A stretch of 59,051 nt of DNA from an uncultured Nitrospira sp. (GTDB lineage: Bacteria > Nitrospirota > Nitrospiria > Nitrospirales > Nitrospiraceae), in contig CABVSR010000024.1 of assembly GCA_902500995.1 (NCBI GenBank), forward strand, positions 1 to 59,051, read 5' to 3'. Below, piece after piece: positions 5,064-43,960 of the stretch (its first letter is position 1; every line of letters begins with the position of its first letter). Under the pieces are notes generated by a model, which was not told where the DNA came from, did no database searches, and worked only from the letters and a program-made list of their open reading frames with translations. A program made the translations under genes and the position numbers.

Positions 5064-6308
5064 ATGACGGCATCGCAGGAAACAGTCTTCCTCAAAGGTC
5101 ATATCATTGATTCGTTGATCCTGGCCAAGGTGCTGGACACGATTCTCATGATGGGTGGCACTTTCGATCTGCAAGACGTCAACATCGGGGCTACGAGAGA
5201 CGCGCCCTCGCAGGCCCGGATTGTCGTGCGCGCCTCTTCCGGCCGGTTGCTGGCGGAGATTCTGCAGGCCATTCAACCCCACGGCGCCGCCGTTGAGCGG
5301 GACACCGATTGCCGCTTTGAGCCGGCTCCGGCCGCGGGCATCTTTCCGGACGAGTTCTACGCCACCACCCATTTGCCGACGCAGATCCGTCTTGATAGTG
5401 ACTGGGTGGAAGTCGAGGGCATGGAAATGGATCTCGGCATCTGTGTCGACCCGGCGAAGGCTCACGCCAGAACGATACCGATGGGAGCGGTCAAGGCGGG
5501 CGACTTGATCGTGACGGGACGAGACGGCATCAGGGTCACGCCGCTGGCACGTCCTGCCGAACGCGATGTATTCGGGTTCATGGAGTCCGTGGTGTCCTCG
5601 GAGCGCCCGCATCAGCCGGTCATCGCCGATATCGCGCAACGCATGCTGAAGATGCGCGGCGGCCATCGCCAGGGACAACCGGGGACGAAGGTGCTGTGTG
5701 CCGGGGGGCCGGCGATCGTGCACGCCGGGGGCCGGGAGGCGCTGACTTGGTTGATCGAGTCCGGCTTTATCCACGTCTTGTTCTGCGGCAATGCCCTGGC
5801 GGCGCACGATATGGAAGCCGGACTGTACGGCACGTCACTCGGGTACGGTCTGACCGCTGGCCGTTCCGTCCCGCACGGGCATGAGCATCACTTGCGGACG
5901 ATCAATCGGATACGCGCGATCGGCAGCATCCACCAGGCGGTGCGCTCCGGAGTCATCACCGACGGCATTATGGCCGCCTGCGTACGCCACGACGTCAACA
6001 TGGTGATGGCCGGTACCATCCGTGACGACGGTCCCCTGCCCGGCGTGGTGACGGATTCCATGCGGGCCCAGGAAGCAATGCGCGAGGCGGTGCAGGGTGT
6101 CGGCTTGGCGCTCCTGGTGGCGTCCACGCTCCACGCAATTGCGACCGGCAATTTGTTGCCGGCCACGGTCCCCACCGTCTGCGTCGATGTCAATCCTTCC
6201 GTGCCGACGAAACTGGCAGACCGGGGCAGTTTTCAAGCCGTTGGCCTCGTGATGGACGCGGCCTCCTTCCTCAAGGAACTGGCGCGGGAACTCGGGTGGC
6301 GCCGATGA
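5064..6308 (+). CDS. LOR/SDH-family (TIGR00300) protein, likely ornithine cyclodeaminase
   Basis: This 414-residue protein belongs to the LOR/SDH conserved-region family (TIGR00300). Members include an archaeal ornithine cyclodeaminase, and the C-terminal domain of cyanobacterial ArgZ/AgrE belongs here too; these convert ornithine to proline and ammonia using bound NAD. Visible features are the N-terminal LOR-type domain (about 1-100, KGHIIDSLILAKVLD and GGTFDLQDVNIG), a linker barrel, and a C-terminal Rossmann-like part with CAGGPAIVHAGG and CGNALAAHDME, then GTSLG and HEHHLRTINRIR. The last base pairs overlap ATGA-fashion with the arginine dihydrolase-like gene, matching the two halves of ArgZ/AgrE in swapped order. 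The family is sure; the activity is inferred from homologues and context. Confidence 0.85.
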   Translation: MTASQETVFLKGHIIDSLILAKVLDTILMMGGTFDLQDVNIGATRDAPSQARIVVRASSGRLLAEILQAIQPHGAAVERDTDCRFEPAPAAGIFPDEFYATTHLPTQIRLDSDWVEVEGMEMDLGICVDPAKAHARTIPMGAVKAGDLIVTGRDGIRVTPLARPAERDVFGFMESVVSSERPHQPVIADIAQRMLKMRGGHRQGQPGTKVLCAGGPAIVHAGGREALTWLIESGFIHVLFCGNALAAHDMEAGLYGTSLGYGLTAGRSVPHGHEHHLRTINRIRAIGSIHQAVRSGVITDGIMAACVRHDVNMVMAGTIRDDGPLPGVVTDSMRAQEAMREAVQGVGLALLVASTLHAIATGNLLPATVPTVCVDVNPSVPTKLADRGSFQAVGLVMDAASFLKELARELGWRR

Positions 6309-7105
6309 GCCGGTTGCTGGTCTGCCCTCCCGACTATTTTCAGATCGATTACGAAATCAATCCTTGGATGAAGCGTGACAATGCGGTCGTGCCTTCGCGC
6401 GCGGTCGCTCAATGGCAGAGGCTGATGCAGGTGCTGGAAGAGGACGTGGCTGCGGGCGTCGAGCGGATGCAGCCGGTGCCCGGCCTGCCGGACCTCGTCT
6501 TTACCGCCAATGCCGGGGTGGTGGCCGGTCGCCGGGCCGTCATCAGCCGGTTCCGCTATCCCGAGCGCCGGCGAGAGGAATTGCATTTTGCGCAGTGGTT
6601 TCGCGAGCAGGGCTATGAGGTGCTGACGCTCGACGAATCGCTCTATTTCGAAGGGGCCGGCGACCTCTTAGGATTTCCCGAAACCTGGTTCGGCGGCTAT
6701 CGCCAACGATCGGATATCCGGTCGTTTCCAAGGCTCAGCGAACTCTTCCAGCGTGAAATCATTCCACTCGAACTCATCGATAGCCGCTTCTATCACCTCG
6801 ATACTTGTTTTTGTCCGCTCAGCGGCGGAGAGCTGCTCTACTTTCCTTCCTCATTCGATGCCTATGGCCTGGCCGCCATCGCGCAACGCCTCCCGGAGGA
6901 ACGTCGGCTGGCGGTGCCTGAGGAGGAAGCGATTCGATTTGCCTGTAATGCGGTGTGCAGCGGCAAGCACATCGTGATTCCGGCCGGCTGTCCCCGCACG
7001 ATGCGGCTCCTGGAATCCCGGGGGTATCTGACGCATGAGGTGGAGCTGAGTGAGTTCATGAAGTCGGGCGGCGCCGCCAAATGCCTGACCCTCGCGCTGG
7101 ACTGA
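6305..7105 (+). CDS. Arginine dihydrolase-like guanidine-modifying enzyme (ArgZ N-terminal type)
   Basis: This 266-residue protein of the amidinotransferase/DDAH fold probably hydrolyses arginine to ornithine, CO2 and two ammonia. Seen are CPPDYFQIDYEINPWM (7-22), FTANAG (66-71), EGAGD (116-120), His164-x-Asp166 and the nucleophile Cys260 in GGAAKCLTL. The opening CPPDY-x-x-DY-x-INPWM is like that of cyanobacterial ArgZ/AgrE. The Asn of the FTAN motif is the residue reported to set dihydrolases apart from deiminases. I chose ATG 6305, which overlaps the stop of the upstream gene as ATGA; a GTG at 6296 is possible. Arginine deiminase or dimethylargininase activity is the alternative. Confidence 0.82.
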   Translation: MSRLLVCPPDYFQIDYEINPWMKRDNAVVPSRAVAQWQRLMQVLEEDVAAGVERMQPVPGLPDLVFTANAGVVAGRRAVISRFRYPERRREELHFAQWFREQGYEVLTLDESLYFEGAGDLLGFPETWFGGYRQRSDIRSFPRLSELFQREIIPLELIDSRFYHLDTCFCPLSGGELLYFPSSFDAYGLAAIAQRLPEERRLAVPEEEAIRFACNAVCSGKHIVIPAGCPRTMRLLESRGYLTHEVELSEFMKSGGAAKCLTLALD

Positions 7106-7206
7106 CAGGGACCGTGATCCGCCTGACGCGTAGGAGGCTGTTGAATAACTATTTGGAAGGTCCCTGGAGAGCAAGACTCCAGGTGTGGGAACACGCACCG
7201 TCCGCG

Positions 7207-7332
7207 CACAGGATGTTCAAATGGCCGTCCAGCGCGGCCGCAGCAAGTGAAGCGGCGAAGCGTACTCCGAGTACGTTGAGCCTCTGAACGACGCGAGAAC
7301 AAAGCTGGCGGACTTTTTCAACATCCTGCTGC
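7207..7332. repeat. Hairpin-forming intergenic repeat, family 1, copy 1
   Basis: The element starts with caggatgttcaaa and ends with tttttcaacatcctgctg, so the ends are inverted repeats. It also holds an internal tccgagta/gtacg dyad. It lies between two converging genes (stops at 7105 and 7335). Copies with the shared core gacgcgagaacaaag(c)(t/c)ggcgg are at 9650-9701 (partial), and in reverse orientation at 17985-18110 (diverged). No coding sense was found. A REP/MITE-like element that can act as a bidirectional terminator is likely. A related ggctgttgaa word occurs at about 7135. Confidence 0.65.
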
Positions 7333-7334
7333 GG

Positions 7335-7694
7335 TTATCCCTTCGATCGGAACAGAAACGACAAGTAGAGCCCGGCGATGGCGGTCGTGGTGAGCTCGAT
7401 CGTGAGCAACAACCGGCTCACGATGGCGTCCGGCCGCGGCGGCGAAAGGATGAAGTGAAAGCCAAGAAAGGCGGCCGGTTGCGAGGGCGGCGTTTCCCAG
7501 GGCGGCATGATGACAGACACGATCAGGACCGTGACCATGCCGTAGAGGATGTGGAGATTCAGCTGTTCTCTGGCAGATGCGGGACTGCCCTGCGTCGCCG
7601 TCTCCTCCGTCCCGCTCGCCACGTTGCTGCCGCAGTAGGTGCAGTAGCGATTGATTTCAGGCAGGGCGCGTCCGCAAGCTGGACAGGGCTTCAT
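7335..7694 (-). CDS. Zinc-ribbon membrane protein
   Basis: This 119-residue protein opens with a zinc-ribbon: CPACGR at residues 4-9 and CTYCGS at 18-23 (two CxxC pairs), which would bind one zinc. A Ser/Thr/Ala-rich linker follows. Two hydrophobic helices come next (about 48-64, LHILYGMVTVLIVSVIM, and about 93-115, LLLTIELTTTAIAGLYLSFLF), suggesting an inner-membrane protein with a cytoplasmic zinc-ribbon. The family is common in bacteria without assigned function. Its stop codon is three bases from the hairpin repeat, which may end its transcript. Confidence 0.7.
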   Translation of the reverse strand: MKPCPACGRALPEINRYCTYCGSNVASGTEETATQGSPASAREQLNLHILYGMVTVLIVSVIMPPWETPPSQPAAFLGFHFILSPPRPDAIVSRLLLTIELTTTAIAGLYLSFLFRSKG

Positions 7695-7815
7695 GATGAT
7701 CGCTCCTCGTGGACCTGCAGCCTACCGTCTGCGCGAGTGGAATTCCAGTGCTGATACGAATGTGCCGGACCGCTTCGTTGACACCCTTCCAGACCCCTTC
7801 CTATAATCCGCGTCC

Positions 7816-8841
7816 ATGACGCGACCATCGAGTCAACGTGTAGCAGTCATCGGCGCCGGCGCCTGGGGCACCGCATTGGCCCGGCACTTGGCTGAGAAGC
7901 AGATGTCCGTGTGCCTGTGGGCGCACGAACCGGAGGTCGTGCAGGCCATTGAACAACGGCGTGAAAACGTCGTGTTTTTACCGGGCGTGCGACTGCCGTC
8001 TACGTTGACCGCCACAAATGGGTTGTCCGACGCCCTGGAAGGGGCTGATTGCGTCATCTTCGCCGTGCCTTCCCATGTGGCGCGACCGGTCCTGAGCCGG
8101 GTCGGCCCGCTTCTAGCGCCATCGGTTCCCTTTGTCAGCGCGACCAAGGGTATCGAAGAAACCACGCTCGAACTGATGACACACGTGATGCAGGAGGTCC
8201 TGCCTGTCCATATGCGGCATTCCTTGATGGTCTTGTCAGGCCCGAGTTTCGCCAGCGAAGTCAGTCAAGGCAAACCCACGGCGCTCTGCCTCGCCGGCCA
8301 GGATGCCGCTGCCGTCAAGACGATCCAGGCCCTGTTCATGACGCCGGCGTTCCGAGTCTATGCGGATGACGATGTGATCGGAGTCCAACTCGGCGGGGCG
8401 TTGAAAAACGTCATGGCCCTGGCGGCCGGCGTGGTGGATGGGCTGGAACTTGGCCATAACGCGCGCGCGGCCTTGATCACGCGCGGCCTGGCCGAAATGA
8501 TTCGGCTTGGTATGGCCATGGGCGCGGATCCGCGAACCTTTTACGGATTGTCCGGTGTGGGTGATCTCATCCTGACCTGTACCGGCCCGTTGAGTCGCAA
8601 CCATTCGGTGGGGATGCGGTTAGGGCAGGGCGAACGGTTGGAAGGAATACTGGCGAGCATGCAGGCCGTCGCGGAAGGCGTGCGTACGGCCAAGGCCGCA
8701 TTAGGCCTGGCGCAACGGTGCGGAGTGGATATGCCGATCGTGCAGGAGGTCAACGCCGTACTGTTCGCCGGCAAATCCTGTCGCCAGGCAGTCGGCGATC
8801 TGATGGAACGTGAAGCCAAGGAAGAAAAGGCCCTGTCATGA
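7816..8841 (+). CDS. gpsA: NAD(P)H-dependent glycerol-3-phosphate dehydrogenase
   Basis: This 341-residue cytoplasmic enzyme reduces dihydroxyacetone phosphate to sn-glycerol 3-phosphate for phospholipid synthesis. The dinucleotide site GAGAWGTALA is at about 11-20. FAVPSHVAR, SATKGIE, LSGPSFASEV, the catalytic GGALKNVMALAAG with its Lys, and the conserved GLSGVGDLILTC near 240 are all present, so it looks complete. The stop overlaps the larB start (ATGA at 8838-8841), giving translational coupling with a nickel-cofactor gene although no pathway link is known. Confidence 0.96.
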   Translation: MTRPSSQRVAVIGAGAWGTALARHLAEKQMSVCLWAHEPEVVQAIEQRRENVVFLPGVRLPSTLTATNGLSDALEGADCVIFAVPSHVARPVLSRVGPLLAPSVPFVSATKGIEETTLELMTHVMQEVLPVHMRHSLMVLSGPSFASEVSQGKPTALCLAGQDAAAVKTIQALFMTPAFRVYADDDVIGVQLGGALKNVMALAAGVVDGLELGHNARAALITRGLAEMIRLGMAMGADPRTFYGLSGVGDLILTCTGPLSRNHSVGMRLGQGERLEGILASMQAVAEGVRTAKAALGLAQRCGVDMPIVQEVNAVLFAGKSCRQAVGDLMEREAKEEKALS

Positions 8842-9620
8842 ATCAAGACCAGTTGCGGGCATTGCTCACCGACGTTCAGCAGGGCGCCATGGCGGTGCCG
8901 GACGCGCTGCACCGGTTACGCACCCTCCCGTATGAAAATTTGGGGTTCGCCTCGCTCGACCACCACCGCGCGCTGCGGCAGGGTTTTCCGGAAGTCATTT
9001 TTTGCGAAGGGAAAACGGTGTCGCAGGTGGTAGCCATCGCCAAGACCCTCTTGCAGAAGAACAATGCGCTGCTGGCCACGCGGGTGGAACCTGCCGCGGC
9101 GCGCGCGTTGCTGCGGCTGAGCAAGCGGGCGACCTTTCATGAGGCGGCGCGCGTGGTGGCGATTGTGCCGCCGAAGCTGGTGCGTCGAGGGTCGGTGCTC
9201 ATCGTCACCGCCGGAACGGCAGATATTCCCGTCGCCGAAGAGGCGCGCGTGACGGCCGACATCATGGGGAGCAAGACGGACACCTTATATGACGTGGGTG
9301 TGGCTGGATTGCACCGCCTGCTCGGCCAACAGGAACGTCTGCATGACGCACGGGCCATCATTGTTGCAGCGGGGATGGACGGTGTGCTTCCCAGCGTCGT
9401 CGGCGGGTTGGTGCGGCAGCCGGTGATCGCTGTGCCTACGAGCCGGGGCTATGGCGCGCATTTCGGCGGCTTGGCCGCCTTGTTGACGATGCTGAATTCC
9501 TGCGCGGCCGGTGTCGGCGTGATGAACATCGATAACGGATTCGGCGCCGGCTGCCTGGCCCACCGCATCAACATGGTGAGCGGGATGGATGGTGTGAAGC
9601 CTGCAGTTGAGAAGGATTGA
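8838..9620 (+). CDS. larB: Nickel-pincer cofactor biosynthesis protein LarB
   Basis: This 260-residue protein matches LarB, which carboxylates nicotinic acid adenine dinucleotide and hydrolyses it to give the pyridinium-3,5-biscarboxylate mononucleotide, the first step of nickel-pincer nucleotide synthesis. The C-terminal half is an AIR-carboxylase (PurE-like) domain: VTAGTADIPVAEEA, VAAGMDGVLPSVVGGL, VPTSRGYGAHFGG and the catalytic-Cys motif NSCAAGVGVMNIDNGFGAG. The length is normal. larC lies 0.8 kb downstream on the same strand, separated by an oppositely oriented exported-protein gene. No larE or larA is in the window. Confidence 0.94.
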   Translation: MNQDQLRALLTDVQQGAMAVPDALHRLRTLPYENLGFASLDHHRALRQGFPEVIFCEGKTVSQVVAIAKTLLQKNNALLATRVEPAAARALLRLSKRATFHEAARVVAIVPPKLVRRGSVLIVTAGTADIPVAEEARVTADIMGSKTDTLYDVGVAGLHRLLGQQERLHDARAIIVAAGMDGVLPSVVGGLVRQPVIAVPTSRGYGAHFGGLAALLTMLNSCAAGVGVMNIDNGFGAGCLAHRINMVSGMDGVKPAVEKD

Positions 9621-9649: not shown

Positions 9650-9701
9650 GCCTTGGAGCGACGCGAGAACAAAGCCGGCGGCCTTTTTCCCGATCCTGCT
9701 A
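9650..9701. repeat. Hairpin repeat, family 1, partial copy 2
   Basis: This short stretch shares the core gacgcgagaacaaagc and the end cctttttcccgatcctgctag with the repeat ending at 7332. Only the right part is present, as a truncated copy. It lies between the converging larB (stop 9620) and the minus-strand gene whose stop codon (complement of 9699-9701) is formed by the last bases of the repeat. It may work as a terminator for both. Confidence 0.55.
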
Positions 9702-10268: not shown

Positions 10269-10437
10269 GGCTGCCGGTGTCGCAGACTGTGGCTGGTGGT
10301 CCGCTGGAACGCGTCCTTCGATTGGGGATAACACAGCATGGCAGGGCTGTCAATGAACGAGCGGAATGATTGCTGTCCGGGTGCGGGTCCGGTAAGATGC
10401 CGCTCGTTTGCGCGGACGACTGAATCGTAGGAGCGAC

Positions 10438-11658
10438 GTGGCGAAGCATCTTCATTTCGATTGTTTTTCCGGCATCAGCGGCGACATGACATTGGGCGCG
10501 CTGGTCGATGCGGGATTGCCGTTCAAGGATCTCGCGCGCGGGCTGGCGTCGCTGAAGATCGATGGGTATCGTCTGGCGCGCAAGCGGGTCGAGCGCGGAG
10601 CCATCACGGCAACCAAGGTCGATGTGCTGATCGACAAAGGCTTGCGTGCCCCGCTCACGCTGACACAAATCGCGCGGATCCTCCTGAAAAGCGGCCTGCC
10701 GCCGGTGGTGAAAGAACGGAGTCAGGCGGTGTTCGATGTCCTGGCTGACGCCGAGGGGAAGGCTCACGGGGTTGAACCGTCGCATGTGCATTTCCACGAA
10801 GTGGGCGTGATCGATTCTTTCGTCGATGTCGTCGGCGGCATCCTGGGCCTGCACCTTCTCGACATCCAGCGTGTGACGGCCTCCGCTGTCAATGTCGGCT
10901 CCGGGATGCTCCAGTCGGCGCATGGCGCGTTGCCCGTGCCGGGACCAGCCGTGGCGGCGTTAGCGGTCGGCGTGCCGATTTATGCCCGCGGTCCTGAGCG
11001 GGAACTGACGACGCCGACCGGGATGGCCTTGCTCAAAACCGTGGCGGCGGAATTCGGCGGGCTGCCTTCCATGCAGGTGCGCCGGGTGGGCTACGGGGCG
11101 GGGACTGCCGATCCCGCGCAGTGGGCCAACGTCTTGCGAGTCTTCATCGGCGAAGAGGCGGATCTGGTCGGGACGGTGGAAACGGTCGTCGAACTGGAGA
11201 CGAACCTCGATGATATGAATCCGCAAGTGTACGAAACGGTCTTCGGTAAGGTGTTTGCCGCCGGCGCCCTCGATGCCACGCTCGCGCCGGTCATGATGAA
11301 GAAAGGCCGGCCGGGGAATGTCCTCTCGATTCTGGCGCCGCGGGCACAAGCCGAGGCGATACTGGCCGTCCTCTTTGCCGACACGACGGCGCTCGGTGTC
11401 CGCACCCGCGAGGTGCAGCGGCACGTCTTGCCGCGCCGCTTTGCGTCGGTACGGGTGAACGGGAAGGATGTGCGTATCAAACTCGCAGACATTGGACGGG
11501 GACAGACCAAAGCCGCGCCGGAATATGAGGATTGTAAACGCGTGGCCGAACAGAGTGGCCGCCCTGTCAAAGACGTGTTACACGACGCCCTGCTGGCCTA
11601 TCGCCAGGCGCCAGGCGCAAGCCGCACACGTACCGAGCGGACGCGGGGGCGCCGGTGA
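10438..11658 (+). CDS. larC: Nickel insertion protein LarC
   Basis: This protein of about 406 residues matches LarC, the CTP-dependent cyclometallase that inserts nickel into the pincer nucleotide. Motifs seen are HLHFDCFSGISGDMTLGAL at the start, HVHFHEVGVIDSFVDVVG (His-rich, about 115), TPTGMALLK (about 193), ETNLDDMNPQVYETVFGK and MMKKGRPGN. I chose GTG 10438, which has a GGAG ribosome site about 5 bases upstream and starts just before the conserved HFDCFSG; a TTG at 10408 is possible but has no support. It is a single full-length LarC with no internal frameshift. It overlaps the antiporter gene (GTGA at 11655). Confidence 0.94.
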   Translation: MAKHLHFDCFSGISGDMTLGALVDAGLPFKDLARGLASLKIDGYRLARKRVERGAITATKVDVLIDKGLRAPLTLTQIARILLKSGLPPVVKERSQAVFDVLADAEGKAHGVEPSHVHFHEVGVIDSFVDVVGGILGLHLLDIQRVTASAVNVGSGMLQSAHGALPVPGPAVAALAVGVPIYARGPERELTTPTGMALLKTVAAEFGGLPSMQVRRVGYGAGTADPAQWANVLRVFIGEEADLVGTVETVVELETNLDDMNPQVYETVFGKVFAAGALDATLAPVMMKKGRPGNVLSILAPRAQAEAILAVLFADTTALGVRTREVQRHVLPRRFASVRVNGKDVRIKLADIGRGQTKAAPEYEDCKRVAEQSGRPVKDVLHDALLAYRQAPGASRTRTERTRGRR

Positions 11659-17808: not shown

Positions 17809-17984
17809 CCCGGACTATTCATGAATGCCTGTTCCGTCATCCGATGCTCTCGCCCGGCGGGGTTTTTCTCGTTCGGCCTCCTCGACGGACTGCAAGTACG
17901 CCTGCGTCGGCCTTACTTGCGAGAACCCCCGGCGGGCTTCAGCCTCGAATGCCTCACGACGGCATTCATGAATAATCCGGGCTA
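17806..17984. mobile_element. MITE-like fold-back element with 24-bp terminal inverted repeats
   Basis: The ends 17806-17829 and 17961-17984 are inverted repeats matching at 23 of 24 positions (tagcccgga(c/t)tattcatgaa...). The inside is also self-complementary: cccggcgggg...ctcg against cgagaacccccggcggg, and gcaagta against tacttgc around the centre near 17905. The 179-bp unit can therefore fold into one long hairpin. It codes for nothing. A non-autonomous mobile element or REP-like structure is likely. It supplies the stop codon of lolA and abuts another repeat. Confidence 0.6.
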
Positions 17985-18110
17985 GCAGAATGGTGAAAAC
18001 GGCCGCAGCATCGTTCTCGCATCGCAGAGAACCTCAACGTACCGCAAGGGTACGCCTCGGCCCTCTGCTCGCTGCGGCCTTGCTGGACGGTTGTTTTGAC
18101 CATCCTGCGC
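17985..18110. repeat. Hairpin repeat, family 1, diverged copy 3
   Basis: The ends gcagaatggtgaaaac and gttttgaccatcctgc are inverted repeats. The interior (gttctcgcatcgcagagaacctcaacgtac, then gctgcggccttgctggacgg) aligns with the reverse complement of the repeat at 7207-7332. This copy is more diverged and in the opposite orientation. It directly follows the 179-bp fold-back element, so two hairpin elements are nested or stacked between lolA and the oxygenase gene. No gene is present. Confidence 0.55.
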
Positions 18111-18196
18111 ACGAACGAAAATTCTTCAGAAGCCAGGCAACAAACTAACACGCAAGAACGACCGCGAATCGTGAATCAAGACGTGGCGAGGGGAGC

Positions 18197-33246: not shown

Positions 33247-35559
33247 TCACAACCAATTGTTCAACAGGAGAAACGCGGCCCAATAAGCCGGATGTTCATA
33301 CACGCGTTCCGAGATGAGTTTTAACTGTGCACGTTGCAATGCCTGTGCCTTCGAAATCGACGTGTCACGCAGTTGACGGTAGAATTCGGACATCAACTCG
33401 ACCGAGGCGTCGTCATTAATAAACCAGAGTGTGGCGAGCGCGCTTCTAGCTCCGGCCTTTACCGCAATGCCGGCGAGTCCAAGCGCCGCCCGGTCGTCCC
33501 CGATCCCGGTTTCACAGGCGCTCAAGGTCAGCAGTTCCAACGGGTCCCGGCGAAAACGAAACAGACCCACCAGCCGCTCGAGCTCGGTCATGGTCAGCTT
33601 GCCGTCGAACGTCAGAAGGAACGATTGAGACACGTCCGTCGCGAACAGGCCGTGCGTGGCAATGTGGAAGATGTTGTACCGGCCGTCACGCAACGCGGTT
33701 TCGATTCGCGGCGCGATAAAATGCTGGTCGAGCAGTTGCTCTCCGCGAAAAAGTGAATGCAGGTAGCCCACCTCTTCGGCCACGTGCGGGAGCGGAGGAA
33801 ATCCCTGCACGGATTTGGTCAACCCGCTGGAAAGGAGTTGGATCCCGGTCCGTGGGAGAGGATGAGGATCGGTCAGCTCAAGCCCCGGGGTCACGGCGAC
33901 GGCATAGCGCGCGATGAGGAATGACTCGCCGTCATGCAATGCCGCCATGGGAATCGTGCGGAGCGCTCCATCGGGAACGAACACCAGCGTGTCCACATGG
34001 AGCCGGCGCAGATCCTGCTGCAGGGGGCGAATGAGCCAATCGTATAACTGTTGCGCGTGCGGCAGATATTCCCTGGTGGTCCGCTTTTCCAGCCGTTGCC
34101 GGAAGCGGCGGACCTCTTCCGTCAGCGCCGAGGCCGTGACCGGGATGGACTGCCGTGTGAGTTTATCGGGAAAGCTCACGAGCAGTTCTGTGCGATCCTT
34201 GAACATGATCGGGTACACGACGGCCGTCGACGCGGAGACGCTGTCGAGTTTTGTGATGCGGGCTTGCAGCTGATCGACGCAGTCGTCCCGGAAATAGTCG
34301 CGAAGCTCCGCGGCCTTGTAGACTTCGATGACATCGCGCGCCGTGCGCAAATAGGGTTCGGTTTCCGCTTCGTCCGGCACCAGGGCCGCGCGCTTCAGGA
34401 GCAAGTCGGCGAATTCAAAATACAAGGCACGGATCGACGGATGGTCCGGATCCGGAGAGCTTTGCGCGGCCCGCGCGACTTCGGCTCGAATCGGCTGGAG
34501 GGTCGATGCCGCGTCCTTGTATGCCGACAAGGCCTCATCGAGTTTGCCGAGGCTGGTGAGCAGTCGGCCGCTTTGCCATTGCCACCGGTAGAGTGATTCC
34601 GGCGCGCCGGCGGCCTGCGCGGCAAACAGGGCTCGGCGAGTCAGGAGCAGGGCCTCGTCGATGCGGCGCTCGTCTTCGTAGAGATGCCCGAGGTGCCCGT
34701 AGGCATAGGAGGCGAAGCGCCGATGGCCTGACCGCTCCGCCATCGATGCCGCTTCTTGCAGCAGCGCCGCGGCCTTCGTGAGCCGGCGGGCATGTTCGTC
34801 CGCCTGAGCCGTCGAGAGGCCGCGATAACCTAAGGCCAGGTTGATGAGCCCATCGATCTTGTCCGGTGAATCAGGCGAGGCCGACAGCCGGTGATCGGCG
34901 TCATCCAAATCCGCCGCCGCCTCCTCCCACCGCTGCACCTGCATCGCCACCCGCGCAGCGTTGATGCGGGCGCGAGCGGGAAGCAGGGTGGTCCCCTGGA
35001 GGTCGGCCAGCGCGGCGGCCTGATGGAACGCGGCCAGCGCATCCACCGGGCGACCCTGTAACACCAGGATAATGCCGAGGTCGTTCTGCAGCGAAGGCGC
35101 CAGTGCGGTGAGGGTCTGTGCCTGCGCGAGATCGACCGCCTGTTGGATGTACTCCGCGGCGACGTCGAATTGGCGATTCGTGACGTAGGTCTTCGCCAGT
35201 TCGGAGAGGGTCAGCGTCAACCAGTACGGATCGCCTTGTTTGCGTGCGAGTTGAAGCGCCAGTTCCTGCTGGAGAAAGGCTTGGTTGAGGTGGCCCAAGG
35301 TCCTGGCCGCATGGGCGGCGTGAGAGAGCGCCTGAATATGGTCCTTGGTCTGGCCAGCCTGATCGTAGAGCCGCGCGGCCTCTTTCCAGGCGACGAGCGC
35401 CTGTTCCCAGTCGCCCGCCTGCTCTGCCGCCAGGCCTTGCCGCACGAACGCCTCGGCTGAAGGTTCTGCCCCGGCGTTCGACACCAGCGGGCAGAGGAGT
35501 AAAAACGCCATCCCGAACAGGATCGCCATCCCGGTCAATGCGCGATGCCGTGACTGCAT
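33247..35559 (-). CDS. Exported TPR-CHAT caspase-like protease
   Basis: A 770-residue protein. It has a signal peptide (GMAILFGMAFLLLCPLVSNAGA) and then about 400 residues of TPR-like helix pairs (AEQAGDWEQALVAWKEAARLYDQAG and following). The C-terminal CHAT domain begins near residue 500. The clan CD protease dyad is seen: His636 in FHIATHG and Cys682 in LSACETG, with LATLWFINDDAS and HPAYWAAFLLLNNW at the end. CHAT proteases of this clan tend to cut after Arg or Lys. It sits directly after the TpsB gene (99 bp) and before the DUF928 genes. The signal peptide puts it in the envelope, unlike the CRISPR-linked craspase, so processing of the TpsA proteins is a plausible job. Confidence 0.9.
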   Translation of the reverse strand: MQSRHRALTGMAILFGMAFLLLCPLVSNAGAEPSAEAFVRQGLAAEQAGDWEQALVAWKEAARLYDQAGQTKDHIQALSHAAHAARTLGHLNQAFLQQELALQLARKQGDPYWLTLTLSELAKTYVTNRQFDVAAEYIQQAVDLAQAQTLTALAPSLQNDLGIILVLQGRPVDALAAFHQAAALADLQGTTLLPARARINAARVAMQVQRWEEAAADLDDADHRLSASPDSPDKIDGLINLALGYRGLSTAQADEHARRLTKAAALLQEAASMAERSGHRRFASYAYGHLGHLYEDERRIDEALLLTRRALFAAQAAGAPESLYRWQWQSGRLLTSLGKLDEALSAYKDAASTLQPIRAEVARAAQSSPDPDHPSIRALYFEFADLLLKRAALVPDEAETEPYLRTARDVIEVYKAAELRDYFRDDCVDQLQARITKLDSVSASTAVVYPIMFKDRTELLVSFPDKLTRQSIPVTASALTEEVRRFRQRLEKRTTREYLPHAQQLYDWLIRPLQQDLRRLHVDTLVFVPDGALRTIPMAALHDGESFLIARYAVAVTPGLELTDPHPLPRTGIQLLSSGLTKSVQGFPPLPHVAEEVGYLHSLFRGEQLLDQHFIAPRIETALRDGRYNIFHIATHGLFATDVSQSFLLTFDGKLTMTELERLVGLFRFRRDPLELLTLSACETGIGDDRAALGLAGIAVKAGARSALATLWFINDDASVELMSEFYRQLRDTSISKAQALQRAQLKLISERVYEHPAYWAAFLLLNNWL

Positions 35560-35658
35560 GCCATTCCTTTCAGCGCGATCGTGCCGGCTGTCCTGACGCG
35601 AGACGGCCAGTGTGTAAACGCGACGTATGACGCCATAACCCAGTTTTTTCGCAGCCTG

Positions 35659-37416
35659 TTAGAGAACTTGCACCACCAGTTGGAGATGAATCCCGTGATC
35701 CTGCAGATTACCCTCACCTCCCCGGATGTGATTGAGCTGCTGGCCCCAATAGAGTTCGAAGCGCGCGCGTTCCTGCGGCAGAATCATCCACCGCAATCCG
35801 ACGCCCACGCTGGCCAGGGTGCTCGGATCGGGCGTGTCGCCTTTGGCATTCCAGGCATGGCCAAAATCGACAAATTGCGCAAACTGCAGCCGGTCTTCGC
35901 CGGACGCGTAGCGCCACAGGGGGATGCGCGATTCAAATGATGCCAGCACCGCATCGTCGCGCACGAGGGTATTCTCCCGATACCCGCGTACGCTGAAACG
36001 TCCGCCGACCGGCATCTGTTCAAGAGGAAACAACCGGTCATTGGCGAGCTGCGCGGCGACGCGCGCCAGCAATTGCACCCCCCACCATTCGTCCAGGCGT
36101 TTGACCGCCTGGGTTTGCCCCAGCCATGAGACAAATTGCCCGTCGGGCAGCGGTCCGCTGTTGATCGTGGCCCCGAGGACGTTCACTCCCACGCTGAGCC
36201 GGGACAGGGCGGCGAACACAAATGAGGACGAACGATGGGTGTACTCCTGGCTGAACCGGAGCGCGCTGACGGTGGCCACTCCGGTGTTGGATGAGCCGGG
36301 AATAAACAAGGACGGCAGGCCCGGCGCATCGAAGGCGGAGGTCGTTTTGAGATAGAGATGTTCCCCGATAATCGAAAGCGCCAACTCGTCGGTGACCGTG
36401 CGGTAGACCGGTTGACGGAGGGCCAGCCCGATGATTTGCGTATCGACATTCAGATCCAGCGTGCGAAACGGATCCTCCACGACGAGAAAAGCGTTCTTCC
36501 GGTAATAAGCGGTCAAGGTCGTGTCGTACGCATTGAGAGGCAGACTATAGGAGGTATCGATGATCGGGTTGACCCCGCTCGATCGACCATAGGTGAACGT
36601 AAATTGGTCGCCATGGCCCGTAAGGTTTTGGTGCGCGATTGTTGCCAGACCCCGTTCGGCGCCGACCACCGGGGTTTGATAATTGTTGAACTCCAGCCAG
36701 GCCCTGAACGGGCTTGCATCCTTCACGCGCACATGCAACAGGCTCTCGCCCCGCACGTCTCCCGGCTTTAGCTCGGCATTGATCCGTTCGATGCGCGGAT
36801 CTTGCTGGAGTAATTGAATCCGTTCCTGGAGCGGCTGAATACTCAGGGGCGTAGAGAGCCCGCGCGCCACCCGGTCGCGCAGATACGAGCTGCGAAACCA
36901 GCGGTTGCCCTCGATATCGATGCGGGAAAGCTTGCCCTCCACGATCTGAATGACGATGGTGCCGAACGACACATCTTGATCCGGAATAACGGCGCCGGAC
37001 GTGAGATAGCCTCTGTTCACATACAGGAGCGTGAGGGCCAGGCGGACCCGTTCCAGATCCTCCGTGGTCAGTTCGCGATTTCGATAGGGGGCGATCACGT
37101 CGGCGAGCTCCGCTTCCGAAAAGACGGTGCTGCCGGTGACATGGATGTCATGCACGAAGACCCGGATCGATCCGAGCCGCTGAGAAGGCGGCGATAAAGG
37201 GGGAGAGATGTCCGGAAGAAGGGGACTCGGCGGGGGCATGTCGGGCGCCTTGAACTCCTCCTTCAGCGGAGCGGGAGGTTTTCCCGATCGGCCGGTCGGA
37301 TCGAACACCGGCGGCAGCGGCGGCGTTACCTGCGCCGTGGCGGCCACGGCAGTCAGGCACTGCCCCACGATCAATCCCGCGCACAGGATGCGGGTGTTGA
37401 AGATCCCCAGCGACAA
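35659..37416 (-). CDS. Two-partner secretion outer-membrane transporter (TpsB, ShlB/FhaC family)
   Basis: A 585-residue protein. A signal peptide is followed by a Pro-rich stretch (about 30-80) and two POTRA domains (RVFVHDIHVTGSTVFSEAEL and GTIVIQIVEGKLSRIDIEGNRWF). A 16-strand Omp85-type barrel comes next, with the conserved loop-6 motif RFSVRGYREN. The C-terminus ends in strand-like QLVVQVL. The start is TTG 37416 with AAGGAG five bases before. It should export the three TpsA proteins encoded just upstream; only one TpsB serves all three. Confidence 0.92.
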   Translation of the reverse strand: MSLGIFNTRILCAGLIVGQCLTAVAATAQVTPPLPPVFDPTGRSGKPPAPLKEEFKAPDMPPPSPLLPDISPPLSPPSQRLGSIRVFVHDIHVTGSTVFSEAELADVIAPYRNRELTTEDLERVRLALTLLYVNRGYLTSGAVIPDQDVSFGTIVIQIVEGKLSRIDIEGNRWFRSSYLRDRVARGLSTPLSIQPLQERIQLLQQDPRIERINAELKPGDVRGESLLHVRVKDASPFRAWLEFNNYQTPVVGAERGLATIAHQNLTGHGDQFTFTYGRSSGVNPIIDTSYSLPLNAYDTTLTAYYRKNAFLVVEDPFRTLDLNVDTQIIGLALRQPVYRTVTDELALSIIGEHLYLKTTSAFDAPGLPSLFIPGSSNTGVATVSALRFSQEYTHRSSSFVFAALSRLSVGVNVLGATINSGPLPDGQFVSWLGQTQAVKRLDEWWGVQLLARVAAQLANDRLFPLEQMPVGGRFSVRGYRENTLVRDDAVLASFESRIPLWRYASGEDRLQFAQFVDFGHAWNAKGDTPDPSTLASVGVGLRWMILPQERARFELYWGQQLNHIRGGEGNLQDHGIHLQLVVQVL

Positions 37417-37452
37417 TGCCGCTCCTTTTCGTTCAGGCGCCGCCTCAACCGA

Positions 37453-40374
37453 TCATGATCGACAACCCGCTGTCAGGCCGAGTGCGACATGTTCTGACAA
37501 GGCGCGGCGATCCGCTTCTTGTCCGACATGCGCCAGCGGCTCAGATGCAGACTCAACAAAGTGCCCGGCGGGCATCTGGGCCGTGCCGGTGACGCCTCCG
37601 CCGGCGAACATCGGAGGGCTCATGAGCCATCCGCCTGGTTCGGCAGGCAGGGCATCCCGTCCGGCGATCACGAGGCTGCTCAGTTGTCCGCCGGACTGGG
37701 CCGCGCAGCGCTGCCGCAAAAGCTGGCGCGCGTGAAACGGTTGCTGAGGCAACGTGGCCAGGCTGCCGCTCAAGCTGGAGACGGGAGATTGGATGTTCAC
37801 GGCCCCGCTCAGACCGAATTGAGACGACGCGCTGATGACGCTCGACGGATCGGCGAGGAAGGTGCCGGCAATGATGTTGATGTTCCCGCCTTGGCCCTCC
37901 ACGGCTTGCGCCAGCACCTGGCTGTTCTGCAGGGTGACGACCGCCGGATCGAGCAGGATATTGCCGCCGGCTGTGGTCGGGCCGCCTTGAACCGACGTGT
38001 TCAGTTGGCTGTTGATGAGCCGGATCGAATCGGTGGCCTGCAGCGTGATATTGCCGCCGCTCGCGTGGACGGCTTGCGTTGTCACGGAGCTATTCTGACT
38101 GAGGAACGAATTGCCGGCATTGAGAACAATGTCGCCGGCGTTGCCTGGGCCAGTGCTCTCCGCAGTCATATTCGAACCGCCACGGATCATAACCGAATCC
38201 AATGCGGCAATGGAGATATGGCCTCCCGTCCCCTCGGACGATGTGGTACTGCTGATCTTTGTTTGCTGATCCGCCCGGAACCCGACGGTGTCGATCACAA
38301 TGTTGCCGGCTGGAGCTCCGCCGTTTGTATCCGTCCTAATGCGGCTACTATTTATGCTCAAGTTGTCTCCCGAAAGAGCGATTGTTGCGGGGTTTGTTGC
38401 GGCGGTTCCTCCGTTTAGTGTCGTGGTGAACTCCGTATTGTTCACGGCAATCAAGTGCGCCGAGGGCGATGCGGATTCGAGTCCTGCGATCGTGATGTCC
38501 CCAGATTTCCCGGCTGATCCGGCGTCGCTGCCGCTGACGGAGAAAATCGACGATGGGGGCTGGCCATTGATCAGAGTCCCGTCCTGCTTCACGTTCGCTC
38601 GGAATGTATGCACATTGAATGTAATATTGCTGCCAGGCGCGGATCGGGATGTGAAGGCAAAAAATACGGTTCTTCCCGTCATGCTGAAGGTGTCCGATGT
38701 GATCCTGATCACGCCTGGGACGAGCGCCGGTGTCCCCCCCAATACCGCTGAGCTGAGTTGCGCGTTGTTGAGAGCGATCAACGAGGCAGGATCGGTAGAT
38801 TCCGGACGCAAGCCGGAGATCGTCAGCGCCCCGGCCGGACCGGCTGTATCCTCTGCGCTCACACTCGGAGTGTTGAGGAAAACGCGATGAGCACCTTCGA
38901 TAGGTGTTTCATCGTGGTTCACGTTTATTCGGAGGACATCGACGTTGATGGCGATGTCACCCGCAGGTGCGGGTCCGAGCGATGTAGTGACCATGGTAGC
39001 CGCGCCGCTTCCCTGCGCGTCGGGAAAATCATCGTTGGTCAAGAGCAGTGATTTGGTGGTGAGTGTAATGGCGCCTGGTCTGCTATGTGCTGATCCGCCG
39101 AAGATCCTTGTGCTGAAAGAGGTGTCCTTCAAGATGACGCTCGTTGCAGCTGTTCCCACTCCCTCGAGCCCTTGCAACGTGATCCGCCCTGCAGAGCCGG
39201 CATCGGTATCGAGGCTTAGGCTATCGCTTGTTATCAGATTTTGTGCGATGGTAGTGGGATCATCTGGGTTCAATCGGAGTCGATTGGTGGCATCTCCTTC
39301 CGTCTTAAAGGTGCCGACGTTAAATAGAATATCCCCTGCTGGTGCTGACCCGTGAGTATCTGCCGTAATGAACGATCCATTGTTCAGGGCAATGGTCTCT
39401 GAAGTAATGGAAATGGCGGAGAATGCCGTATTCCCCCTGTTTGTCATGCTTTGACCATTCACCGCAGTCGCTTTGAGTGACGCATCATCCATAGTGAATC
39501 GACCACTGCGAATGACGATTCTTCCGGCTGCGTTTGCACTGGTGTCGATGCTGGACTCTTGAGAAAGGGAAATAGTCCCGAGCGAATTGAAACCACTCAG
39601 AGTTGGGTCTGTGCCAGCCATTAAGACTTCCCCTGGCGACGCGACACTGACGAGCGTGACCTGGCCCGCTGGCACTGACAGACGAGCAGCCTGTGATGAA
39701 CCATTTTCCAATGTGCCCGACCGGACTTCGATGTTCCCGCCCACCAAGGAGAGCCCCTGTCCCTCCGACACCGCGAGCCGCCCGCCCTGGACGGTGATCG
39801 CCGCCGGGTTTGACCCCAGGAACCCGAAGGCCGCCACCGGTGCAGTGGAGACGGAGGCATCCTGTGGGCCGGGGAGGGCATTGAACTGCGCACCGTCCGT
39901 GAGACGCAAATAGTCCGCCGTGGTGAAACTCACCGATCCCCCGACATTCAATGACGCAGTCGGGCCGAAGACGATGCCGGCTGGGTTCATCAGGAAGAGA
40001 TTGGCGCCGCCGAAGCCGGTGGTTTGGATCGTGCCGAAGATGTTGGAGGGGTTGCCGCCGGTGACACGGCTGAGAATATTGGAGGTGGCGAGTCCGGAGT
40101 CGTTCACGAAATTGGCGAGGGCATTGGCCGGCACGCCGAACTCTCCGAAGCTGTGGAAGAGATTGGGCCCGTTGCCGGGGCGCGTGCCGCCGGTAATGTC
40201 GTAAAGGGCGCCGCGGTTGGTCACGGTGGTATTCAGCCCCGACGAGGTGATCGGCGAGGATGTTTGCGGATATCCGCTGTCGGGTAGGCAGGGTGGAATC
40301 AGACAGCAAGTCATCAATGCCGCAGTGAACATAGATCTTTGCCGATGGCTAATGCAGATCAAGACGCTATTCAT
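37453..40374 (-). CDS. TpsA exoprotein 1 (filamentous haemagglutinin N-terminal domain)
   Basis: A protein of about 973 residues. The signal peptide is followed by the TPS secretion domain (SPITSSGLNTTV, SILSRVTGGNPSNIFG-like, LFLMNPAGIVFGPTASL, SVSFTTADYLRL), which is the cyanobacterial style of NPNG-type motif. A long Ser/Thr/Gly-rich beta-helix follows. The tail has RQRCAAQ and SSLVIAGRDALPAEPGGW, then a variable stretch, and ends in GCRS. After the signal peptide, I see Cys only in these two tail positions. ATG 40374 is preferred over the longer frame. No toxin, RGD or CDI domain was seen. It is next to tpsB (36 bp) and likely exported by it as a surface or released fibre. Confidence 0.85.
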   Translation of the reverse strand: MNSVLICISHRQRSMFTAALMTCCLIPPCLPDSGYPQTSSPITSSGLNTTVTNRGALYDITGGTRPGNGPNLFHSFGEFGVPANALANFVNDSGLATSNILSRVTGGNPSNIFGTIQTTGFGGANLFLMNPAGIVFGPTASLNVGGSVSFTTADYLRLTDGAQFNALPGPQDASVSTAPVAAFGFLGSNPAAITVQGGRLAVSEGQGLSLVGGNIEVRSGTLENGSSQAARLSVPAGQVTLVSVASPGEVLMAGTDPTLSGFNSLGTISLSQESSIDTSANAAGRIVIRSGRFTMDDASLKATAVNGQSMTNRGNTAFSAISITSETIALNNGSFITADTHGSAPAGDILFNVGTFKTEGDATNRLRLNPDDPTTIAQNLITSDSLSLDTDAGSAGRITLQGLEGVGTAATSVILKDTSFSTRIFGGSAHSRPGAITLTTKSLLLTNDDFPDAQGSGAATMVTTSLGPAPAGDIAINVDVLRINVNHDETPIEGAHRVFLNTPSVSAEDTAGPAGALTISGLRPESTDPASLIALNNAQLSSAVLGGTPALVPGVIRITSDTFSMTGRTVFFAFTSRSAPGSNITFNVHTFRANVKQDGTLINGQPPSSIFSVSGSDAGSAGKSGDITIAGLESASPSAHLIAVNNTEFTTTLNGGTAATNPATIALSGDNLSINSSRIRTDTNGGAPAGNIVIDTVGFRADQQTKISSTTSSEGTGGHISIAALDSVMIRGGSNMTAESTGPGNAGDIVLNAGNSFLSQNSSVTTQAVHASGGNITLQATDSIRLINSQLNTSVQGGPTTAGGNILLDPAVVTLQNSQVLAQAVEGQGGNINIIAGTFLADPSSVISASSQFGLSGAVNIQSPVSSLSGSLATLPQQPFHARQLLRQRCAAQSGGQLSSLVIAGRDALPAEPGGWLMSPPMFAGGGVTGTAQMPAGHFVESASEPLAHVGQEADRRALSEHVALGLTAGCRS
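37641..37962. repeat. 322-bp direct repeat, copy 1 (TpsA tail)
   Basis: This stretch matches 40567-40888 at all but two of 322 positions with no gap; both code for the C-terminal tail of a TpsA. The regions beside the repeat are much less alike, as shown by the different last 50 residues. Recent duplication or gene conversion is the simplest reading. Confidence 0.9.
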
Positions 40375-40396
40375 CGTCACGCCTTCGGTTCGACCG

Positions 40397-42304
40397 TTAG
40401 GACCCACAACCGGTTGCCCTGTCATATACTCCTTGCCGAGATATTTGTCCTGCCAATCTTTGACGTTGGTCTGGCACGAGGGGAAAGCCGTGGCCTAGTA
40501 AGGGCTCGCGGGAAGAGTTTTCTGTCGCCACGAGAACAAATGGACTCAACAACCACCCGCCGGGCTCGGCAGGCAGGGCATCCCGTCCGGCGATCACGAG
40601 GCTGCTCAGTTGTCCGCCCGACTGGGCGGCGCAGCGCTGCCGCAAAAGCTGGCGCGCGTGAAACGGTTGCTGAGGCAACGTGGCCAGGCTGCCGCTCAAG
40701 CTGGAGACGGGAGATTGGATGTTCACGGCCCCGCTCAGACCGAATTGAGACGACGCGCTGATGACGCTCGACGGATCGGCGAGGAAGGTGCCGGCAATGA
40801 TGTTGATGTTCCCGCCTTGGCCCTCCACGGCTTGCGCCAGCACCTGGCTGTTCTGCAGGGTGACGACCGCCGGATCGAGCAGGATATTACCGCCAACGGT
40901 ATCGGCTCCGCCCTGCACTGAAGTGCTTAGTTTGCTGTTGATGATTCGAATCGAATCGACGGCTTGAACGAGAATATTGCCGCCGCTCGCCAGACGGGCA
41001 TCGGTGGTTACAGTGGAATCGCGGCTGAGAAACTGAGGTCCGGCATTGATGGTGATGTTACCGGCGTTGGCTGAACCGGTACTGTTGGCGGACAGAAATG
41101 CGCCGTTGCCTAGCGTGGCAGATTCGGTTGCGTTCAACGAAATGTTTCCGCCGGCCCGAGTTCCTCTGGATAGGGCGGATACTCCGCCACCCTGCATCAC
41201 CAGACTGCCGGCGGAGAGCTCAATATTGCCGGTATGTTCCTGGCCATTCGACGAACGCGGTCGTATATCCCTGACATTGGCTGAAATATACGTATTGCGC
41301 AGTTCTAGGGGGCCGCTCGCTCGTATCTCAATTTTGCCTCCGAGACCGATGCTGTTTGTCTCCGTCAAGACATCCGTTCCTGTCAGACGGATGGCCGAGG
41401 AGGGTGGATAAGGAGTGTCGTCCGGAATGGGTCCGCTGACGCCGCTGATACTGATCATGCCTGCGCCGCCGGAACCGGTACTGCTGCTGGAGATGACCAC
41501 TCGGGTCGGATCGGTGGCATCTATGATCCTGGGGGCCGTAAGTGTCCCTCCCGGTCTGGTCCCAGGTCTGGTGGTCAGTACATCCGCATGCAACTCGATG
41601 CGATTCGCAATCCGGTTGCCTTGAGTGGGCGCAATGATCCCCCCACCGGTGATGTCCAAGTTCTTCGCAGACACGAAAAGACTGCCCTGAACGCTCCGTC
41701 CGTCCGTTACCACCGTACCCGCCTCCCCCGCGCCCACGACATCTATCAATCGTCCCATTGAATCCAGGACGTTCGTTACATTGTTCACTTGAGAATTTAC
41801 GATGGAATGGTCGAGGATGATGTTGTCGGCTCTGATTCGGAGATAACCCGGCAATCCTTCGTGTAGTGCTTCGACCGTGACCTCCGAATTGGTCAACTTC
41901 ACCGTATTAGTCGGTACATCGGGGTAAGGGGCATCCCAAAGAGCCCCGAATGAAAAAAAGTGATCCTTGATAATTTTCGTGATGCCAGCCTGGGCTCGTC
42001 CATGTCCCGTATTCGTGATCAGCGAATTGTCGGCCTGTAGTGAGTGATCGACCCGTAACCAGATTTCTCCTGCGCTTGGCCCTCCCTGACATAATGGGCA
42101 GGACCCAATGTCCGACACTTCAGCATTGGCCTTGATCGTGCTGTCCCTTAAAACGATATCCCGAGCCATGAGATCAATGCGGCTGAACCCCTGATTTTTC
42201 GCTGGTTGGCCATTGGGTTTATTGTCGTTTATTGTGAAGTCCTGGGTCGCGACCGAAATATTGGTGTCGGTGAACGAAGCTTGCCCGTTCGTCCTCATCA
42301 TCAC
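40397..42304 (-). pseudogene. TpsA exoprotein 2, C-terminal part (frameshifted gene)
   Basis: This frame encodes the beta-helix and C-terminal tail of the second TpsA, but has no secretion signal. Its coding sense continues upstream beyond the first ATG: the frame reads ITYYFAGEFDINGTDIHSDATGNAPGG and, further up, SNCGSQCLGGQAGYITIQG, back to about 42520, where it should join the N-terminal part in the neighbouring frame. The tail holds RQRCAAQ, AGRDALP and the end GCGS, as in the paralogues. It contains a CPLC pair (GSCPLCQGG). It is either a broken gene, a sequencing error of one base, or a programmed shift; no slippery heptamer was obvious. Confidence 0.75.
40567..40888. repeat. 322-bp direct repeat, copy 2 (TpsA tail)
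   Basis: This is the partner of 37641-37962, with two mismatches in 322 bp. It encodes the same conserved TpsA tail segment (ending in the GRDALPAEPGGW region). Confidence 0.9.
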
Positions 42305-43923
42305 GATTCCGCCCGGGGCATTGCCGGTGGCGTCCGAATGAATATCTGTGCCGTTGATGTCAAACTCTCCTGCGAAATAATAGGTAATGGCTCTATTGGG
42401 CTCAGAATCAGGGGTGGTGACGTGTCTGTAAAGTCGAGTACTCGAAGGGGTGAAGCCTGGAATGCCTTGAATCGTGATATAGCCGGCCTGTCCTCCGAGG
42501 CATTGACTGCCGCAATTACTATGCTTGAAACTGAAACGCGCCCATTTGGACCGGCTTGTGTGTTCAGGCTGTCAACGTTCAGCGTGATAGCTCCGGCATC
42601 CGCCCCGCCGGTGGTGTCCGACTGCAGGAGGGTCCCGTTCGCCAACTCGACCTGGTGCGCCGTTATCTCGATGTTGCCGGGAGCCACCATTGGGTCTGCA
42701 ACATGGCCCACACCCGTCACGATGCGGGTATTGCTCAATAAGACCGCGTCCGCCGGCTCCCCTGTTTTGCCGCCAATGGTAATCGTGCCGGCTCCGCCCG
42801 GCCCGCTACTGGTACTCGCAATGGTCACCGGCGCGGCTCCGGTGAGAGGCGCCCCGTTAGGGGCGACATTGCTGCGGAAGGAGCTCGCCTCAAACCTGAT
42901 ATGCCCTGCTGGTCCGCCGCTGGTGGAAGCGATCACGCTCGATCCATGCGACAGGTCGATGTCTTCCGCGTGGACCGCAATACCCCCCGTGGCCGCAGCA
43001 GAGGGAGAAAGGCCCGGCGCGATCGATGTCGTGTTCGCTTCCAGCGTCGCGCCTTCCATACTGAACTGCCCGCTACGTATCGCGATGCGACCTGCCGTGG
43101 GGCCGCTTGCGCTGATCACCGAGCCTGGTGCGAGCTCCATCGCACCCATCGAGGCAAAGCTGTTCAGAGCTGATTCGCCGGCCAGCGTTCCTCCGATCGG
43201 CACCTCACCCGGCGAGGCGACACTTGCCAGATGGAGGTGTCCACCGGGAGCAGAGAGTCGAGCAGCCTGTGATGATCCGTTCTCCAACGTGTTGGAACGT
43301 ACTTCGATGGTCCCTCCCACTAATGAGAGCCCCTGTCCCTCCGACACGGCCAGTCGCCCGCCCTGGACGATGATTGCGCCGGGGTTCGATCCCAGAAACC
43401 CGAAGGCCGCCACCGGTGCAGTGGAGACGGAGGCATCCACCGGGCCGGGGAGGGCATTGAACTGCGCGCCGTCCGTGAGCCGCAGATAGTCTGCCGTCGT
43501 GAAACTCACCGATCCGCCCACGTTCAACGAGGCCGTCGGGCCGAAGACGATGCCGGCCGGGTTCATCAGGAAGAGATTGGCGGCACCGAAGCCTGTGGTA
43601 CGCAGGGTGCCGAAGATGTTGGAGGGGTTGCCGCCGGTGACACGGCTGAGAATGTTTGAGGTGGCGAGTCCGGAGTCGTTCACGAAATTGGCGAGGGCAT
43701 TGGCCGGCACGCCGAACTCTCCGAAGCTGTGGAAGAGATTGGGCCCGTTGCCGGGGCGCGTGCCGCCGGTGATGTCGTAGGCGGTGCCGCTTTTGGCGAC
43801 GGACGTGTTCAACCCCGATGAGGTGATCGGCGAGGGCGCCTGAGCCTGCCCCGGGGCGGGCACGCTCAAGGGGATCAGCCAGCAGGCCAAGAGGGCGGCC
43901 GAGAGATGTGACGCGCTCATCAT
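42301..43923 (-). pseudogene. TpsA exoprotein 2, N-terminal part (frameshifted gene)
   Basis: This part has a signal peptide (LSAALLACWLIPLSVPAPGQAQA), the TPS secretion domain (SPITSSGLNTSV, LFLMNPAGIVFG, SVSFTTADYLRL) and part of the beta-helix, so the true coding sense covers about residues 1-468. From about 42520 onward the reading becomes Pro/Ser-rich nonsense ending at 42301. The other frame gives the expected beta-helix pattern, placing a one-base shift near 42515-42525. The N-terminal domain is nearly the same as that of TpsA 1. The start ATG 43923 is followed by a second ATG. Joined, the protein would have about 1175 residues. Confidence 0.75.
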
Positions 43924-43960
43924 ACCAGCGTTCTCGCCCCTTCCTATCGACCTGCCGCTC

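Follow-up and report, generated by a model that had tools for sequence, protein, structure and literature searches.

The closest described systems to the locus reported here are AgrE (Alr4995) of Anabaena and ArgZ (Sll1336) of Synechocystis, in which an N-terminal arginine dihydrolase and a C-terminal ornithine cyclodeaminase share one chain. The published AgrE pathway leads from arginine via ornithine to proline (PMC8262935). A stand-alone relative of the cyclodeaminase half is the archaeal LOR/SDH-type protein of Methanococcus maripaludis (PDB 3c2q). The enzyme families are known by their chemistry, and no description of a two-gene arrangement was found in the literature searched. We analysed a 59,051-nt stretch of DNA from an uncultured Nitrospira sp. 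(contig CABVSR010000024.1), called the window below, which contains the following features:

5064-6308, plus strand: ORF1, predicted ornithine cyclodeaminase of the ArgZ/AgrE C-terminal type (ATG start, 414 aa; TIGR00300, Pfam, PDB, AlphaFold2 model)
6305-7105, plus strand: ORF2, predicted arginine dihydrolase of the ArgZ/AgrE N-terminal type (ATG at 6305, 266 aa; NF052232 as best model, below its cut-off; PDB, catalytic residues)
6305-6308, plus strand: ATGA start/stop overlap between ORF1 and ORF2 (sequence; 4 nt shared)

The cyclodeaminase gene comes first and the dihydrolase gene second, with an ATGA join, exactly as the first-pass annotation had it. The enzyme identities given there also agree with our profile matches, as ORF1 scored above the TIGR00300 cut-off and ORF2 had ArgZ/AgrE as its nearest relatives. 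Its mention of the dihydrolase as the "first enzyme" was swapped, since the dihydrolase is encoded by the second gene. The 4-nt overlap suggests translational coupling, which would keep the amounts of the two proteins roughly matched, and the two products might, if at all, form a complex. Elsewhere in the window, the minus strand carries a two-partner secretion cluster (33247-46993), in which three proteins with TPS secretion domains are encoded side by side with a ShlB/FhaC-type transporter and a CHAT-TPR protein.

ORF1 reached 460.4 bits against TIGR00300 in the NCBIfam profile search (cut-off 410.8), a model entitled "ornithine cyclodeaminase, nickel-pincer nucleotide-dependent" in NCBIfam release 20. 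Its three Pfam domains, the N-domain PF04455 followed by PF21571 and PF21570 (ArgZ-like_C_1st and ArgZ-like_C_2nd), are those of the ArgZ/AgrE C-terminal half. The best PDB matches were 3c2q, AgrE (6lrf) and ArgZ (6juy). An AlphaFold2 model of ORF1 (mean pLDDT 80) matched the C-terminal half of AgrE over the whole length of the fold (6lrg, E=2.8e-42, TMq 0.74); it also matched 3c2q and, more weakly, deoxyhypusine synthases, and no LarA structure was among the 50 matches listed. The genome encodes a deoxyhypusine-synthase-like protein of its own (G000:C9:113872-114096), distantly related in fold to the cyclodeaminase, which hhalign matched to ORF1 too weakly for histidines to be mapped.

ORF1 shares about 40% identity with the cyclodeaminase of AgrE/ArgZ, and about 44% over the shared part with 3c2q, which is likewise a stand-alone member of the same family. 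The classical ornithine cyclodeaminases (PF02423, mu-crystallin family) have the same overall reaction as that predicted here but belong to a different family, and PF02423 had zero matches in the genome. The locus resembles AgrE/ArgZ in having both domains, the dihydrolase catalytic residues, the cyclodeaminase fold and the predicted reactions. It differs in that two proteins replace the single chain and the cyclodeaminase precedes the dihydrolase. The locus thus does not fit the bifunctional ArgZ/AgrE model NF052231, having two ORFs in the opposite order and no single fused chain with the dihydrolase at its N-terminus.

The pair is well conserved within Nitrospirota. TIGR00300 was matched above its cut-off in 24 of 118 genomes, 21 from the family of the window, two from another family of the order and one from another family of the class. 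All 24 also carried the dihydrolase, always directly downstream of the cyclodeaminase. This recurrence of the adjacent pair in every TIGR00300-positive genome rules out chance adjacency. The two genes overlapped by 4 nt in 20 pairs, and were separated by 106-198 nt in three and by 4 nt in one. At one locus (L043), the two genes, which overlap in its relatives, are parted by a copy of a roughly 125-bp dispersed repeat. The repeat occurs at many Nitrospira loci (L043, L039, L056, L044 and others), and within the window at 7200-7330, 17984-18117 and 9650-9700. One seeming absence of the pair (G105) was left uncounted, as the contig breaks off shortly after gpsA, at the expected site of the pair. 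Another Nitrospirota family (f11) has the dihydrolase with no TIGR00300 match above the cut-off (G008, G017, G026, G035, G054, G059, G064 and G069).

The arrangement extends beyond this phylum. When GTDB contigs were scanned with the cyclodeaminase profile, at least 598 pattern matches were obtained, of which 80 were kept. Among 41 kept loci mostly from other phyla (L100-L140), 22 had a dihydrolase downstream on the same strand, close by in 21 and 1.9 kb away in the remaining one (L114). These included Planctomycetota, Omnitrophota, Deltaproteobacteria, Methylomirabilis and Armatimonadetes, and the scan thus ruled out an arrangement restricted to Nitrospira. The dihydrolase-first order was found at none of the 80 kept loci of the 598 or more. 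An apparent cyclodeaminase-dihydrolase fusion at L127 proved to be an artefact, with a stop codon between the two. In a planctomycete genome (G253, locus L146), dihydrolase and cyclodeaminase follow each other as in cyanobacteria, apparently in one open frame of 816 aa.

Separate genes with the cyclodeaminase first are therefore a common arrangement. The pair had been presented as a split and reversed oddity, a view that our survey does not support, as Nitrospirota and several other phyla usually have this form. The two-gene form is not special to this genome (24 of 24 cyclodeaminase-positive Nitrospirota; several other phyla). The Nitrospira form was probably not derived by splitting of a fusion. 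Because the two-gene form is usual in Nitrospirota and several phyla, and the cyclodeaminase stands alone elsewhere, it is the cyanobacterial fusion that may be the derived state.

The assignment of ORF2 required more care. Its top model was the arginine dihydrolase NF052232, at 292 bits below the curated cut-off of 450, so the dihydrolase name rests on the nearest relatives, the catalytic residues and the neighbouring gene. ORF2 also matched the dimethylargininase model NF045659 (229.5 bits, under the cut-off of 300) and Pfam DDAH_eukar, with other dimethylargininase models lower still. These matches and the low dihydrolase score would fit a deiminase or a DDAH-like dimethylargininase, which would yield citrulline instead of ornithine and leave the two steps unconnected. 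We regard this as very improbable, because the dihydrolase profile and the ArgZ/AgrE structures outscored the DDAH-type matches by far. The best PDB matches were ArgZ (8e-77; 6jv0/6juy) and then AgrE (6lrf), with DDAH only at about 1e-10, so that among solved structures the E-values of ArgZ/AgrE were over 60 orders of magnitude lower. In alignments to 6juy, 6juz and 6jv1, residues N69, H164 and C260 of ORF2 corresponded to N71, H168 and C264 of ArgZ, H168 being the catalytic His of that enzyme. The Asn and Cys correspondences came from aligned mutant ArgZ chains (Asn-to-Ser in 6juz, Cys-to-Ser in 6jv1). The three residues were invariant in 15 Nitrospirota proteins and 61 survey sequences, except for one alignment gap at C260. 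Deiminases and DDAH carry an acidic residue at the position of ArgZ Asn71, whereas ORF2 and all its relatives have Asn. The pairing with an ornithine-using enzyme also argues against citrulline as the product. By sequence, ORF2 is an ArgZ-type guanidine-modifying enzyme.

Taken together, the two genes likely encode a two-protein version of AgrE/ArgZ and a two-step route from arginine to proline, as judged from predicted activities. The ORF2 product would convert arginine to ornithine, CO2 and two NH4+, and the ORF1 product would convert ornithine to proline with release of a third NH4+, so that arginine would yield proline, CO2 and three NH4+ overall. This predicted route with its three ammonium ions, also put forward in the first-pass annotation, is in line with the published AgrE pathway (PMC8262935). 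The pair could instead be mainly anabolic and make proline, as is thought for ornithine cyclisation in methanogens, and the relationship of the cyclodeaminase to archaeal proteins such as 3c2q would suit such a role. We consider this unlikely, as every one of the 24 pair-bearing genomes, including that of the window, has a proC match above the cut-off, and the partner is an arginine-degrading enzyme, which fits catabolism. The cyclodeaminase as the sole source of proline is likewise unsupported, as proC is present. Given this distribution of proC, the glutamate route to proline is probably present besides the pair, and a catabolic, nitrogen-releasing role appears likelier. Nitrogen buffering in a nitrifier is a plausible candidate for that role.

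Downstream of the pair lie genes for biosynthesis of the nickel-pincer nucleotide (NPN), together with gpsA:

7778-7807, plus strand: sigma70-type promoter match TTGACA-18-TATAAT, just upstream of gpsA (consensus scan, 12/12)
7816-8841, plus strand: gpsA, glycerol-3-phosphate dehydrogenase (NCBIfam; overlaps larB by ATGA)
8838-9620, plus strand: larB, nickel-pincer nucleotide biosynthesis (NF033503, 285 bits, cut-off 175)
10408-11658, plus strand: larC, nickel insertion for the NPN cofactor (TIGR00299 192 bits and NF052512 137 bits, both above cut-off)

The larB and larC genes start 1.7 kb and 3.3 kb downstream of the pair, and together they span 1.7-4.6 kb. The LarC1 and LarC2 domains lie within one uninterrupted ORF. 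A minus-strand ORF (7335-7694) is located between ORF2 and gpsA. A single operon of the pair with larB and larC is unlikely, since this ORF and the perfect promoter match intervene, which suggests that gpsA-larB forms a separate transcription unit. Between the end of the -10 box in this match and the listed start codon of gpsA there are 8 bases, which suggests that gpsA is leaderless or starts later than listed. The order cyclodeaminase, dihydrolase, gpsA, larB and larC was kept in all 21 family genomes sampled, flanked by truD upstream and by pdxA and ksgA downstream where the sequence compared extends that far. The pair was unlinked to larB in G065, G081 and G117, which are related at the level of the order or class. 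The larE gene is found elsewhere in the genome of the window (G000:C7:140953-141717, 303.7 bits), which thus holds the NPN pathway genes larB, larC and larE. The encoded LarE carries SGGIDS, CYHC and a distal Cys, as in LarE of the [4Fe-4S] type (PMC9283937).

This neighbourhood raises the question of which cofactor the cyclodeaminase uses, a point absent from the first-pass annotation. LarB scored above its cut-off in all 24 Nitrospirota genomes with the pair and in 49 of 94 without it (Fisher p 2e-6, uncorrected for relatedness). When only LarA-less genomes were considered, the proportions were 18 of 18 and about 47 of 90 (Fisher p 4e-5, likewise uncorrected). LarA itself was found in six of the 24, among them the genome of the window, and the other 18 had larB and larE without larA. 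Among 43 further genomes with the cyclodeaminase, LarB was above the cut-off in 39, and 15 of the 16 LarA-less ones, in other phyla, kept it. Planctomycetia were uninformative as a test of co-occurrence, since 116 of 118 genomes had LarB above the cut-off and all 118 had LarA. On these grounds, the chances that the cyclodeaminase uses NPN, the product of LarB, LarE and LarC, either in place of NAD+ or in addition to it seem even or very slightly better. For the stricter reading, we would put the balance at the midpoint: here the stand-alone Nitrospira cyclodeaminase would be an NPN enzyme, arginine breakdown would depend on nickel and on LarB, LarE and LarC, and the NAD+ seen in the crystal would not be the working cofactor, or not the only one. 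ORF1 would then resemble the LarA nickel-pincer racemases in possibly using an NPN cofactor and in its association with lar biosynthesis genes. It differs from them in its fold matches, as noted above, and in its predicted reaction, which is not a racemisation.

The same pathway could also run on a plain NAD+-dependent cyclodeaminase, with larB and larC supplying LarA-type racemases or some other NPN enzyme and lying close by through inherited gene order; we give this a little under an even chance. The NAD(H) site of AgrE is reportedly needed for cyclodeaminase activity, and its two active sites are said to lie about 45 angstroms apart. Structure 6lrg is a ternary complex of AgrE with ornithine and NAD+, and the deoxyhypusine synthases among the fold relatives of ORF1 are NAD-dependent. 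The lar genes are set apart from the pair by the minus-strand ORF and the promoter match, and their linkage to it is the gene order of one clade, absent from the three more distant relatives. Furthermore, larB is widespread without the enzyme, occurring in about half of the Nitrospirota that lack both the cyclodeaminase and LarA, and the LarA homologue of the window's genome could use NPN. Against a plain NAD+ enzyme stand the 18 of 24 cyclodeaminase-positive genomes that keep larB and larE in the absence of LarA, and the NCBIfam classification of TIGR00300 as NPN-dependent, a name for which our literature search found no published basis. The genomic pattern agrees with NPN dependence but falls short of proof, because the linkage amounts to a single evolutionary event, LarB also works with other partners and the AgrE crystals contained NAD+.

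The cyanobacterial arginine-to-proline route thus appears, from sequence comparison, to exist as a two-gene unit in swapped order across Nitrospira and several other phyla. A non-LarA NPN enzyme has been predicted in cyanobacteria, among them Synechocystis PCC 6803, from which ArgZ comes, and the identity of the NPN-using protein was left open (PMC11796402). With larB and larE but no LarA in 18 of the 24 genomes, Nitrospira offers a clean test of who uses the nickel cofactor, and of whether the cyclodeaminase works with NAD+ or NPN. If NPN dependence is true, this would identify the NPN-using enzyme other than LarA that has been proposed for bacteria lacking larA.
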